Of a stretch of DNA of 64,000 nt, positions 44,497 to 49,228 are shown in pieces. The stretch is from Geobacteraceae bacterium (lineage in GTDB: Bacteria; Desulfobacterota; Desulfuromonadia; Geobacterales; Pseudopelobacteraceae). Position 1 is the stretch's first letter. The number at the start of each line of letters is the position of its first letter. Location of the stretch: assembly GCA_013336525.1 (NCBI GenBank), contig JAAXTM010000006.1, positions 1 through 64,000 on the forward strand, written 5' to 3'. The position numbers were made by a program, and so were the translations under genes. The notes under the pieces are model-generated. The model saw only the letters and a list, made by a program, of their open reading frames with translations, had not been told where the DNA came from and searched no databases.

Positions 44497-45984
44497 GTGG
44501 CGAAGCCCCTCTTTATTCTCTTACTCACCGCAATCATATCAGTGCAGGTTTCAGTAACCGCCTTTGCTGCTGAACCTGAAGCAAAACTTGAACCTAAAGC
44601 AAAACCTGCACCTAAAGCAAAGCCTGCACCTGTCGGCACATTGGGTGGTTTCTCTCTTACTCCTACTGTAGGCGGATATTCATTTGCAGGTTCGGAACAC
44701 CGAGATCCGGTTCAATTGTATGGGCTCAAAATCGGCTATGATAAAATAGGCAAATCTATCGAGGACAGCCTTGGTGTTGAAGCGACATTTAACTACTTCG
44801 CTGCCAAGTCTAAAGCTGACGCGAACTACTCCGCCGGATATCTTGTCCGCCTTGATGCTGTTTACCCCTTTGTTCAGGGTGTGAAATGGATGCCATTTCT
44901 GGCGGCCGGTGTCGGCGGGATTGCCATTGATAACGGTGTTGATTCTGTTTTAGAGAAAAACCTCCTGTTAAATTACGGTCTTGGCCTGAAATATTTCTTT
45001 GAAAATTACTTTGCAGTCAGAGTCGATGGCCGGCATCTGATAGTCTACAGTAAAAACAATGACTCAAGAAACAATTTTGAAATCGGCGCTGGTGTAAGTT
45101 ATTATTTTGGCAAGGAACGCAAGAAAAAATCAGTTCCACCGCTGAAAACCAAACCGGCAGTAAAGAGCGAACCCAAAAAGGAGAGCGATTTGAGCGGAGC
45201 CCAGCTTGAGAAGGTTCTGGAGCCCCTTGCCCCCCTTGCGGTTATTATTCCTCCATCAGATTCTGATGGTGATGGCGTAATCGATACTATGGACAAATGT
45301 CCGGAAACACCGCCAGGTGTGGCTGTTGATAGCAACGGCTGCCCACCGGATTCTGACAAGGACGGCATACGCGACTATCTTGACAAGTGCCCTGGAACTC
45401 CAACCGGTGTAGATGTCGATGACAACGGCTGTCCTCCTGATTCAGACAACGACAGGGTCCCAGACTATCTTGACAAGTGCCCGGGAACTCCAACCGGTGT
45501 AGCTGTTGATGCCAATGGTTGCCCGCTTGATTCAGACAACGACGGAGTCGTAGACTCCTTGGATAAGTGCCCCGCAACACCAGTAGCTGCCTCGGTGGAT
45601 GCTGATGGCTGCACAATAGGAGTAGCTAAAAAATTCTGCAACAAGCCAGCCATTATTGCCATCTCTTTTGACTCTAACAAAGCAGATATTAAGGCTGGTT
45701 ACCATGCTGAGCTTGACAAATTAGGCAATTTTCTAAAAGAGTTCCCAGGTTCAAAAGGGACCATAGACGGATATACAGACACCGATGGCAGCAAGGCAAC
45801 AAATCTGATATTATCACAAGCCAGGGCAGATAGAATCAGAAGCTATCTTGTCAATAAATTCGAAATAGACAGCAAGCGTATTGACACGAAGGGATACGGC
45901 ACAGCAAAACCGATTGCTTCCAATAAAAACGAGGCTGGTAAAGCAAAAAACCGCCGAATAGAGGCAGTTTTCATCTGTGATTAA
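44497..45984 (+). CDS. OmpA-family outer-membrane protein with thrombospondin type 3 repeats
   Basis: Protein of 495 residues: a signal peptide, a Lys/Pro/Ala-rich spacer with repeated PKAKPAP units, an outer-membrane beta-barrel (about 50-210), four 30-residue calcium-binding repeats (pattern DSDNDGVVDSLDKCP...GC, about 253-375) and a C-terminal OmpA peptidoglycan-binding domain (FDSNKADIK, DGYTDTDGS, RADRIRSYLV, KNRRIE). It anchors the outer membrane to peptidoglycan. GTG start with GGAG upstream. Confidence 0.9.
   Translation: MAKPLFILLLTAIISVQVSVTAFAAEPEAKLEPKAKPAPKAKPAPVGTLGGFSLTPTVGGYSFAGSEHRDPVQLYGLKIGYDKIGKSIEDSLGVEATFNYFAAKSKADANYSAGYLVRLDAVYPFVQGVKWMPFLAAGVGGIAIDNGVDSVLEKNLLLNYGLGLKYFFENYFAVRVDGRHLIVYSKNNDSRNNFEIGAGVSYYFGKERKKKSVPPLKTKPAVKSEPKKESDLSGAQLEKVLEPLAPLAVIIPPSDSDGDGVIDTMDKCPETPPGVAVDSNGCPPDSDKDGIRDYLDKCPGTPTGVDVDDNGCPPDSDNDRVPDYLDKCPGTPTGVAVDANGCPLDSDNDGVVDSLDKCPATPVAASVDADGCTIGVAKKFCNKPAIIAISFDSNKADIKAGYHAELDKLGNFLKEFPGSKGTIDGYTDTDGSKATNLILSQARADRIRSYLVNKFEIDSKRIDTKGYGTAKPIASNKNEAGKAKNRRIEAVFICD
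45258..45618 (+). repeat. Four tandem 90-bp repeats coding for TSP3 units
   Basis: Four in-frame copies of about 90 bp each encode DSDxDxxxDxxDKCPxTPxG units ending in GC. The middle copies share long near-identical DNA stretches, so copy number could vary by slippage or recombination. Confidence 0.75.
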
Positions 45985-46058: not shown

Positions 46059-47093
46059 TCAAGGTCTTATCTCAACGTTCGTGCCATTTGGCACCAACCT
46101 GTCAATTTCCTCTATCTCTTCGTCGGTAACGGCAATACACCCTTTCGTCCAGTCAACCTCTGTGTGAAGATCACCAGCCCACGAAAATCCATTCTTAATG
46201 CCGTGGATCATAATGTCACCGCCCGGAGAAACACCAAGTTGTTTTGCTCGTTTCTTGTCTTTCTCGTTTGGATAGGAAACATGAAGAGAAAGGTGATAAA
46301 GGCTGCCCCTGTTTCTTGAATCGATAACGTAGGTTCCCTCAGGGGTTTTGTTATCGCCTTGCCTTTCTTTTGGACCATCCGGGTTTCCCCCCAAGGCAAT
46401 TTTATAGGTCCTGATCACCTCGCCCTTTGATAACAACGTCAATCGTCGTTCGTTCTTTTCTATCAGAATCTTGTCTGCAGGCCCCTTCGGTAAGACATAA
46501 ACCTCTTTTTGCAGTTTAATAATCTCATTTTCTTTGTTCCGAACCTCTTGTTCAAGCGCCTCAATCTTATTTTGCAGGGTATTATTATCATTACCCCTAC
46601 TTTGGACATCTTGCCGGAGAGCCTCAATCTGTGTCTGCTGCGCAGCAATCGTCTTGTCTTTAATGATGGCATTATTGATATTAAACATCATCAACTCACT
46701 GTCTTTCCTGTACTCACTCCCAGGGTAATTTTTTGTGAGTTCATGAAAACATTTCAGAGACTTCTGATAATCTTTCTGCTCATTCCCGGGATAGGCATAA
46801 ATAATACCCATCTCAAAAAGGCTCCTGTCTCCCGCCGCAGGATACTTTTCAATAATCTGCTCATATTTTTTCAGAGAGTCCTTGTAGTTTCCCTGGCTGA
46901 AAAAATCATTCGCTTCTATGAAGGTCAACTTGGCCTGAGATCCCTCATTAAAGTGACCGCATCCGCATATCAGCAGGGGCGCAAGTATGATGAAGGCAAA
47001 AAACGAGATTAGATGTTTACCCTTCCTACTTTGTTTTTTACCCATGTTCGACTTCGTGGCCTCTGGTAATATGTTTGATGATCGCAGAACCAT
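46059..47093 (-). CDS. L,D-transpeptidase lipoprotein with TPR and coiled coil
   Basis: Protein of 344 residues: signal with lipobox LLICGC, TPR-like repeats (ANDFFSQGNYKDSLKKYEQI), a coiled coil (about 150-200, repeats of IEALRQDV and IEALEQEV type) and a C-terminal YkuD catalytic domain with HGIKNG and TKGCIAVTDEE carrying the nucleophilic Cys. It forms or remodels 3-3 crosslinks or attaches proteins to peptidoglycan. The ATG at 47093 has AGAGGAAG close by; an internal ATG at 47045 is the alternative. Confidence 0.85.
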   Translation of the reverse strand: MVLRSSNILPEATKSNMGKKQSRKGKHLISFFAFIILAPLLICGCGHFNEGSQAKLTFIEANDFFSQGNYKDSLKKYEQIIEKYPAAGDRSLFEMGIIYAYPGNEQKDYQKSLKCFHELTKNYPGSEYRKDSELMMFNINNAIIKDKTIAAQQTQIEALRQDVQSRGNDNNTLQNKIEALEQEVRNKENEIIKLQKEVYVLPKGPADKILIEKNERRLTLLSKGEVIRTYKIALGGNPDGPKERQGDNKTPEGTYVIDSRNRGSLYHLSLHVSYPNEKDKKRAKQLGVSPGGDIMIHGIKNGFSWAGDLHTEVDWTKGCIAVTDEEIEEIDRLVPNGTNVEIRP

Positions 47094-47224: not shown

Positions 47225-47569
47225 TTACTTCTTCATTGATTTGCGAAAAACTTCGTCAGCCTTCTTCGCTTTTTCGTCTGCGATAATCATCTTTTCATCT
47301 GCGATTTTCGCCTTCTCATCTGCGATCTTAGCTCTTTCCTCTGCCATCTTTAAAGCATTTTCTGCGCGGGTTGCAGCAGCATCAGCCCTTAACGTGGCCG
47401 CATCAGCTGCCGCCTTGGCAGACTGCGCATCCTGCGCTGCCTGATCAGCTTTTGCACCTGTCAGCATCTGCTGCGACTGAACTTTCTCAAGGTCACCTGT
47501 TGTTGCACAACCACCCAAAGCAGCAGCAAAAACAAGTAGTATTGAGATCACTAAAAGATTCCTATTCAT
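47225..47569 (-). CDS. Lpp-like alanine-rich coiled-coil lipoprotein
   Basis: Protein of 114 residues. The lipid anchor would be Cys21 of the lipobox LGGC. The rest is an uninterrupted alanine-rich heptad coil with repeats of AKIADEK, ending in lysines (KSMKK). This matches Braun-type Lpp/OprI proteins, whose C-terminal lysine is joined to peptidoglycan by L,D-transpeptidases. Its start overlaps the stop of an L,D-transpeptidase gene by 4 bp, so the enzyme and a likely substrate are made together. Confidence 0.78.
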   Translation of the reverse strand: MNRNLLVISILLVFAAALGGCATTGDLEKVQSQQMLTGAKADQAAQDAQSAKAAADAATLRADAAATRAENALKMAEERAKIADEKAKIADEKMIIADEKAKKADEVFRKSMKK

Positions 47570-48903
47570 AGTTTTTCACCTCCTCTCTCTCTCTTGATAG
47601 GTTCAATCAATTTACCATCCAGCTCCAAATCTATTTTCAAACGCTTTATTGCATCTCTGGCCTCTCTGATATCACTGAAAGGGCCAGCAACAACACTATA
47701 GTTACCGTTCTCCGCTATCACCCTTGCCGGGATATGTGGACCCTGATGGTTGACAATGGCGGTGAGCCTCAGAGCATCAACCTCATCACGTACAGCAGCA
47801 GCCAAAACAGACCACGCATCTGTTTTCAGTTCCGGTATTTCCGGGCTGCCATATAATTTGCCCGGGTGCTTGACTTCTATAGGCTCTGCAACGCCTTTTC
47901 CATTTCCCTGCCTGATCTCGAATATGGGGACAGGAATCCCTCGGGCCTCGGCCAATACGTTCTTAACTTTACTCCAGTCAAGCGTGCGTCCTGATTCCTT
48001 TTCAATAGCTTTCAATTTTGCGTATACTTTATCAAATTCAGCGGCGTCCGACTTTTCCGTGGACGCATGAACTTCCATGTAAACGACTCCATCACTTTGG
48101 CCGAGGAGATATGGCTGGTTAACGATGCTGACCGGTGTCTTAACCGGAGTGTTCTCATAGAGTTTTTTCACGCTTTCCGGATATAGCCTTATGCACCCAT
48201 TGGATGCCCTAAGACCAACGCTGGCCGGTTTATTGGTGCCATGGATCAAATAGCTCGGCGCACTTAAATAGAGCGCGTATTCTCCCAAGGGATTTTGAGG
48301 CCCCGGCAGAACTGCAGCGGGCAGAGGATCTCCTTTTTTCAGATGATCCTTGGCAATTGAGGCCGGTACATACCAGGTCGGCCGGGTCACCTTGCGATCA
48401 ACGCGCATTTGGCCCGTGGGAGTGGGGCGTTCTTCGGTACCGACACCGGCCGGAAAGGTCAACACTTCAAGAGTCTCACTATTCCCTTTAAATTCAAAAA
48501 GCCTCATTGTGGCCAGATTGATCACGATTCCTTTTCTCGGGGCGTCCGGCAGAACGAAACTCAGAGGCAGCATGATGCGTTTTCCAGCCTCAGGCACCCA
48601 TATATCTACCCCTGGATTAGCTGCACTGACTCCATTGAGTCCCAGACTAAAGTGCCTTGCAATATCCGGTAGAGTATCCCCCTTTTCAAGGTTCATGTAT
48701 CTCAACCGGCCAATGACATCCTCTCCTTTTGCAACAGCAAACTCGTTTTGCACGATATATTCTTCAAGATATCTTGGAATAAGCTGTTCTTCCTCATGAG
48801 CTCTTATCATTGCAGTACATCCCTGAAGAGATGAGATAACGACAAAAAGAGCTATGAGTCGGAGCGTATTAGTTAAAGAGAACAGCTCAATGATTCGGTA
48901 CAT
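47566..48903 (-). CDS. LysM-YkuD L,D-transpeptidase lipoprotein with SPOR-like domain
   Basis: Protein of 445 residues: lipobox SSLQGC, a LysM-like segment (LEKGDTLPDIARHF), a YkuD catalytic domain with HGTNKPASVGLRASNGCIRL, and a C-terminal SPOR-like domain (YSVVAGPFSDIREARDAI). The LysM-YkuD order resembles the E. coli enzymes ErfK, YbiS and YcfS that tether Lpp to peptidoglycan. The start at 48903 is inferred from the signal peptide. The mRNA begins with a GEMM riboswitch. Confidence 0.85.
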   Translation of the reverse strand: MYRIIELFSLTNTLRLIALFVVISSLQGCTAMIRAHEEEQLIPRYLEEYIVQNEFAVAKGEDVIGRLRYMNLEKGDTLPDIARHFSLGLNGVSAANPGVDIWVPEAGKRIMLPLSFVLPDAPRKGIVINLATMRLFEFKGNSETLEVLTFPAGVGTEERPTPTGQMRVDRKVTRPTWYVPASIAKDHLKKGDPLPAAVLPGPQNPLGEYALYLSAPSYLIHGTNKPASVGLRASNGCIRLYPESVKKLYENTPVKTPVSIVNQPYLLGQSDGVVYMEVHASTEKSDAAEFDKVYAKLKAIEKESGRTLDWSKVKNVLAEARGIPVPIFEIRQGNGKGVAEPIEVKHPGKLYGSPEIPELKTDAWSVLAAAVRDEVDALRLTAIVNHQGPHIPARVIAENGNYSVVAGPFSDIREARDAIKRLKIDLELDGKLIEPIKRERGGEKL

Positions 48904-49055
48904 GGCAATTAAGGCCCTTTTAATATATAATACTTGCCTACGTTGAAAGTTCGGCCCGGATCTGGAAATCACTCACCGCTGCTGCAGCCAGCTCTGTACT
49001 TTTCTGATTATCATCATGCAGCCTGCATTCTTACTCTGGCCTGATTTAATTGCAC

Positions 49056-49168
49056 AAAAAAACCGGGTCACCAAATATCTTCAGGATATTTCGGCGACCC
49101 GGCTGTCTCTGTGAGACCCTGTAGGCTTTCCGTCCCATTCTCGCGAATGGTTTAGTATTATCGTCTAA
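49056..49168 (-). promoter_or_regulatory. GEMM-Ib (cGAMP-type) riboswitch with overlapping terminator
   Basis: Read on the minus strand: AATACTAAACC, a CCATTC-GCGA-GAATGG stem with a GNRA loop, GACGGAAAGCC, a GTCTC-ACA-GAGAC stem and AGCCGGGTCGCCGAAA. These are the ordered parts of the GEMM-I aptamer; the AATACTAAACC variant is typical of Geobacter cGAMP-responsive members. The 3' end also forms a terminator with 49063-49079 (CCGGGTCGCC pairing with GGTGACCCGG, then seven U). Ligand binding should prevent termination and turn on the L,D-transpeptidase gene. Confidence 0.88.
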
Positions 49169-49200
49169 CCAATATATTGAACTCTGCATTGTTCGCGGGC

Positions 49201-49228
49201 ATCTTAACTCAACTGGGAAGCTTGTCAA
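49201..49228 (-). promoter_or_regulatory. Promoter of the GEMM riboswitch transcript
   Basis: On the minus strand TTGACA (49223-49228) and TAAGAT (49201-49206) are 16 bp apart, placing the start about 25 bp before the aptamer. Confidence 0.55.

Follow-up and report, generated by a model that had tools for sequence, protein, structure and literature searches.

The window, a 64-kb stretch (64,000 nucleotides) of DNA from a Geobacteraceae bacterium, contained an operon of three genes on its reverse strand, headed by a riboswitch leader. In order, the genes encode an L,D-transpeptidase (LDT1; 48903-47566), an alanine-zipper lipoprotein (47569-47225), and a second YkuD protein (LDT2; 47093-46059), with the LDT1 stop and the lipoprotein start sharing an ATGA (47569-47566). 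By inspection, all three proteins carry lipoprotein signal sequences. The first-pass annotation had described an operon of a YkuD enzyme and a lipoprotein; both of these were recovered, while the third gene (46059-47093) had been missed, so that the operon comprises three genes and not two. Two of the four YkuD proteins encoded by the genome lie in this operon. The features of the locus are the following:

49201..49228, (-) strand: promoter-like site TTGACA-16-TAAGAT, upstream of the riboswitch (consensus scan, 10/12 matches)
49090..49166, (-) strand: GEMM-I aptamer, GEMM-Ib/cGAMP type (RF01051; A at position 20; AATACTAAACC)
49056..49102, (-) strand: intrinsic terminator, hairpin CCGGGUCGCC..GGUGACCCGG followed by a U7 tail
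47566..48903, (-) strand: LDT1, predicted lipoprotein L,D-transpeptidase (LysM-like, YkuD with SNGCIR, weak Ldt_C, SPOR; Pfam)
47225..47569, (-) strand: Lpp/OprI-family alanine-zipper lipoprotein, overlapping LDT1 by ATGA (NF040598, PF11839)
46059..47093, (-) strand: LDT2, predicted lipoprotein with BamD-like TPR, coiled coil, and YkuD with TKGCIA (Pfam YkuD, 65.5 bits)

A convergent gene adjoining the operon (44497-45984) encodes an OmpA-family protein with TSP3 repeats, likely another, non-covalent link between the outer membrane and the wall.

The covariance-model search that the first-pass annotation had proposed returned c-di-GMP-I (RF01051) as the single Rfam match in the whole window, at full length and above the GA cutoff (cmscan; 44.2 bits versus 35, E=2.2e-5). 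RF03167 (c-di-GMP-I-GGC) overlaps the aptamer, scored 47.7 bits, under its cutoff of 59, and was left unassigned. Position 20 of the aptamer (Vc2 numbering; position 11 of the model), which touches the ligand at its variable nucleobase, is A, the mark of GEMM-Ib, in keeping with the class previously assigned to this leader. With an A20G exchange, a GEMM-Ib switch becomes selective for c-di-GMP instead of cGAMP (PMC6456294), and the window switch is predicted to sense cGAMP. Covariation among 26 aptamers supports the helices, with 6 pairs altered on both sides versus 2.1 in shuffles. A second, degenerate riboswitch was sought in the window's leader and none was found.

The terminator hairpin (49102-49056) folds at -26.0 kcal/mol, and its 5' arm, CCGGGTCGCC, doubles as the 3' strand of helix P3 in the aptamer, which upholds the overlapping terminator described earlier. 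Because of this shared strand, terminator and aptamer are mutually exclusive; ligand binding that holds P3 should thus prevent termination. Sequence overlap and folding both fit an ON-type transcription terminator overlapping the aptamer, and we infer that the aptamer binds its ligand and that this copy acts as an ON switch. Compared with shuffles, the entire leader has a fold that is better by 5.4 sd, and the leaders of relatives have the same arrangement of terminator and aptamer. The predicted ON direction agrees with that reported for Geobacter sulfurreducens, in which the anti-terminator is described as being stabilised when cGAMP binds (PMC6456294). The promoter-like site (49228-49201) is weak alone, as such sites turn up near chance rate in the consensus scan.

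LDT1 matched YkuD at 81.7 bits, SPOR at 36.9, and Ldt_C at 17.8, the last under cutoff. Of the LysM-YkuD architecture first proposed, the YkuD half was thus confirmed in Pfam; the LysM half fell under Pfam reporting and emerged from the family profile, which matches the LysM structure 4b8v over residues 73-121 (E=5e-4). The conserved start is ATG 48903 rather than GTG 48972. The lipobox (L-x-G-C) is conserved, with G31 and C32 invariant, and the catalytic motif, SNGCIR in the window copy, is kept as (S/T)xGCxR among relatives. By NCBIfam, LDT1 is closest to LdtE (E=6e-52; 176.8 bits versus an equivalog cutoff of 480) and lies far under the cutoff of every LdtA/B/C/E equivalog. The domain, the SNGCIR motif, and this likeness to LdtA/B/C/E agree with the original call of an L,D-transpeptidase; the particular function of such an enzyme is not readable from its LDT lineage (PMC10434034).

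The lipoprotein scored 63.5 bits against NF040598, "Lpp/OprI family alanine-zipper" (cutoff, 43), and 37 bits against Alanine_zipper (PF11839). It has the lipobox LGGC, a mature length of 94 aa, and the C terminus ...FRKSMKK, and so is, as the first reading had it, a lipoprotein ending in Lys. That final residue is Lys in all 68 distinct sequences compared (68/68), and in 63 of the 68 the mature length is 73, 80, 87, 94, or 101, i.e., whole heptad steps, with the lipid end and the SMxK end both held constant. It is the only Lpp/OprI-family protein in its genome, in which no second alanine-zipper match was found. In some relatives, a second, more distant LDT adjoins an alanine-zipper protein that is under cutoff (G047:C26:9906-11077, G031:C27:105863-107170, and similar cases elsewhere); the G047 copy (L039) lacks an Rfam riboswitch.

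The solved structure closest to LDT2 by profile is 8IKR (E=2.6e-12), assigned to DpaA, whose structure paper contains this code; among YkuD proteins of solved structure, its nearest matches are DpaA and two LD-carboxypeptidases, Bd1075 and Pgp2, none of them transpeptidases. TxGCIA (TKGCIA in the window), GPK, and the equivalents of DpaA Lys83 and Ala145 were present in 35/35 relatives, giving LDT2 the SXGChA-type catalytic motif together with Lys83. Of the DpaA-specific cleft residues Gln86/Arg108/Lys130/Tyr131, the full set is absent: equivalents of Gln86 occurred in 32/35 relatives and of Arg108 in 21/35 (Leu in the window copy), and those of Lys130 and Tyr131 in 0/35. Against the DpaA/LdtF (YafK) equivalog NF040599, LDT2 scored 37.7 bits, far from the cutoff of 365. 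An AlphaFold model of LDT2 had low confidence across the YkuD domain and was set aside as a basis for fold comparison. From these comparisons, LDT2 appears to be a hydrolase of the YkuD type that acts either as an amidase or as an LD-carboxypeptidase; both readings remain because the Lys130 and Tyr131 equivalents are lacking, and in either case its predicted direction of catalysis would oppose LDT1. Given its resemblance to Lpp-releasing or LD-carboxypeptidase-type hydrolases, the operon may control attachment as well as its opposite.

Gene set and switch are closely associated among relatives. Full-length LDT1 was encoded by 27 of the 58 genomes surveyed, the window's own included, and an over-cutoff Lpp accompanied it in 26 of these 27; in the remaining one (G028), the lipoprotein is a fragment at a contig edge. 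None of the 58 genomes had an over-cutoff Lpp without LDT1. The order LDT1-lipoprotein-LDT2 recurs among relatives; for L116 and L061, the pattern search gave no clean Lpp or LDT2 row. All 26 other LDT1 genomes had a leader with GEMM-I, one switch in 9 and two in 17, and all 43 orthologous copies in these 26 relatives were A20 (43/43). A second cmscan set, mostly from a neighbouring family, had GEMM-I switches at 20/20 loci, and in this set plus named public genomes, with some genomes counted twice, A20 was found in 71/74 copies. Within the window's own genome, 9/10 GEMM-I switches are A20; by inspection, switches other than that of the operon lie before genes such as pilM and a multiheme cytochrome.

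Several divergent copies were observed. The top-scoring GEMM-I switch of the genome (L001:1501-1582, at C12:117796-117877) is G20, with U in place of the expected C92 by column reading. The gene-nearest copy at L074:4833-4910 (= L168:2905-2982) and at L165:4-80 is G20 and otherwise of GEMM-Ib sequence, and at L074 the distal copy retains A20. A further GEMM-I switch, G-type by inspection, lies ~1.8 kb downstream of LDT1 at L070:5211-5291. In CSP1-8, an apparent decayed GEMM-Ib switch lies upstream of the LDT (L062:825-911), its P3 arm intact and its AATACTAAACC core lost; no GacA match was found in that genome.

The genome also encodes a Hypr GGDEF cGAMP synthase, a full-length GacA orthologue located elsewhere (L144; REC-GGDEF, Ser at the Hypr position, GGDEY), whose best PDB match was the Geobacter GacA domain 6d9m at 196 bits (next, 102). 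Among 32 named genomes sampled, full-length GacA with the Hypr Ser was present in all 13 that bear the switch and GacA in 0/19 that have an LDT and no recognisable switch, a co-occurrence whose weight is limited by relatedness and by possible mis-binning of metagenome genomes: it is confounded by phylogeny, since as few as 3 changes on the LDT tree account for the switch label. Genomes labelled Nitrospirota are nested in the switch-bearing clade of that tree and have neither switch nor GacA. Across the survey, GacA was found in 52/58 relatives, many of them without the operon, so that the dependence runs one way. In G. sulfurreducens, deletion of gacA lowers a GEMM-Ib operon, GSU0181-0183, described as "uncharacterized lipoprotein transpeptidases," 16-fold (eLife 2019, PMC6456294).

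Together, these features suggest that a cGAMP-sensing GEMM-Ib ON-riboswitch probably controls a three-gene envelope-tethering operon in which LDT2 limits or reverses the tether. GacA-made cGAMP would bind the nascent leader and keep P3 in the aptamer; with P3 so held, the terminator could not form and the operon would be transcribed. LDT1 would transfer tripeptide stems of peptidoglycan to the C-terminal Lys of the lipoprotein, by which the outer membrane would become covalently tethered to the wall. LDT2 might then cut the bond, in the manner of DpaA and probably of LdtPae3, or alternatively trim the donor stems, as LD-carboxypeptidases do. That the operon covalently tethers the outer membrane is what we infer with good support. 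The fuller proposition, that cGAMP switches on a complete tether cassette of attaching enzyme, heptad-adjustable lipoprotein staple, and releasing enzyme, is put forward tentatively, as a possibility that falls somewhat short of even.

Other readings of the same genes were considered. With LdtE, a 3-3 cross-linking enzyme in Escherichia coli, as its best NCBIfam match, and with LDT lineage a poor predictor of function (PMC10434034), LDT1 might mainly make 3-3 cross-links under a cGAMP-responsive switch, the lipoprotein serving as a non-covalent coiled-coil spacer in a wall that is stiffened and not tethered. Such a spacer would have no use for an invariant C-terminal Lys, however, and LDT1 is strictly paired with an Lpp in which that residue is constant; we regard this reading as unlikely. 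Somewhat unlikelier still is an operon that only builds, LDT2 being an ordinary transpeptidase: it is, after all, a YkuD protein whose hydrolase direction is predicted from sequence, but its TxGCIA motif and Lys83 equivalent recur in every relative compared, and transpeptidases are missing from its nearest solved YkuD structures.

The identity of the ligand raises a separate question, as RF01051 carries the Rfam name c-di-GMP-I, and some GEMM-Ib copies are dual, such as the G. sulfurreducens OmcST switch, which answers to both cGAMP and c-di-GMP (PMC6456294). The gene-proximal copy of two relatives is, moreover, G20. An aptamer that senses c-di-GMP, or both dinucleotides, instead of cGAMP is nevertheless improbable for the window, where the base is A20 and A20G is the change that shifts selectivity toward c-di-GMP, and it sits poorly with the 16-fold lower expression of GSU0181-0183 without gacA (PMC6456294). 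Under the more tentative reading of a complete tether cassette, some relatives, in which the switch nearer the genes of a pair carries A20G, would have a cassette that responds to cGAMP and c-di-GMP together; two such switches in series, each for its own messenger, would form an AND gate.

Geobacter cGAMP signalling is known through cytochromes and pili. If the operon is a tether cassette, second-messenger control would link extracellular electron transfer to envelope mechanics; anchoring of the outer membrane, and perhaps the width of the periplasm too, would come under messenger control.

The nearest known system is GSU0181-0183, which resembles the window operon in its GEMM-Ib control, its lipoprotein transpeptidases, and a middle locus tag, GSU0182, listed elsewhere in the literature as "murein lipoprotein." The probable orthology between the two operons is based on the naming of the genes, the order in which they stand, and their control by a riboswitch. 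The first-pass annotation knew of no description of a cGAMP link of this kind, but the gacA dependence of GSU0181-0183, the probable orthologue, is already published (PMC6456294). Among open-licence papers, we found no function put forward for GSU0181-0183, and none that suggests or examines a role for it in tethering the outer membrane. The window has a single riboswitch, and tandem arrangements are common in its relatives.

For the proteins, the roles proposed here, namely, attaching, tethering, and detaching, are the same three as those of LdtA/B/C, Lpp, and DpaA in E. coli, where DpaA detaches Lpp and mature Lpp, at 58 aa, is shorter than the 94 aa of the window lipoprotein; the sequences of LDT1 and LDT2 are far under the E. 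coli equivalog cutoffs. In Pseudomonas aeruginosa, OprI, an alanine-zipper lipoprotein, owes its anchoring to peptidoglycan to LdtPae2, and the role assigned to LdtPae3 is to release it; LDTs usually have the motif SXGChR, and SXGChA has been proposed as specific to releasing enzymes (PMC10434034). The likeness extends to an LDT of the ErfK/YbiS/YcfS/YnhG lineage, an alanine-zipper lipoprotein with a C-terminal Lys, and a releasing-type YkuD protein with the SXGChA motif, LDT1 having the SXGChR-type and LDT2 the SXGChA-type motif as in the P. aeruginosa pair. Unlike LdtPae2, LDT1 combines a SPOR domain with a lipobox, and unlike LdtPae3, LDT2 carries fused BamD-like TPRs and a coiled coil. In contrast to P. 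aeruginosa, moreover, the three genes of the window stand in one operon under a cGAMP-type riboswitch. The regulon itself is already known, and to it the window operon adds a member and a model of attachment and detachment.
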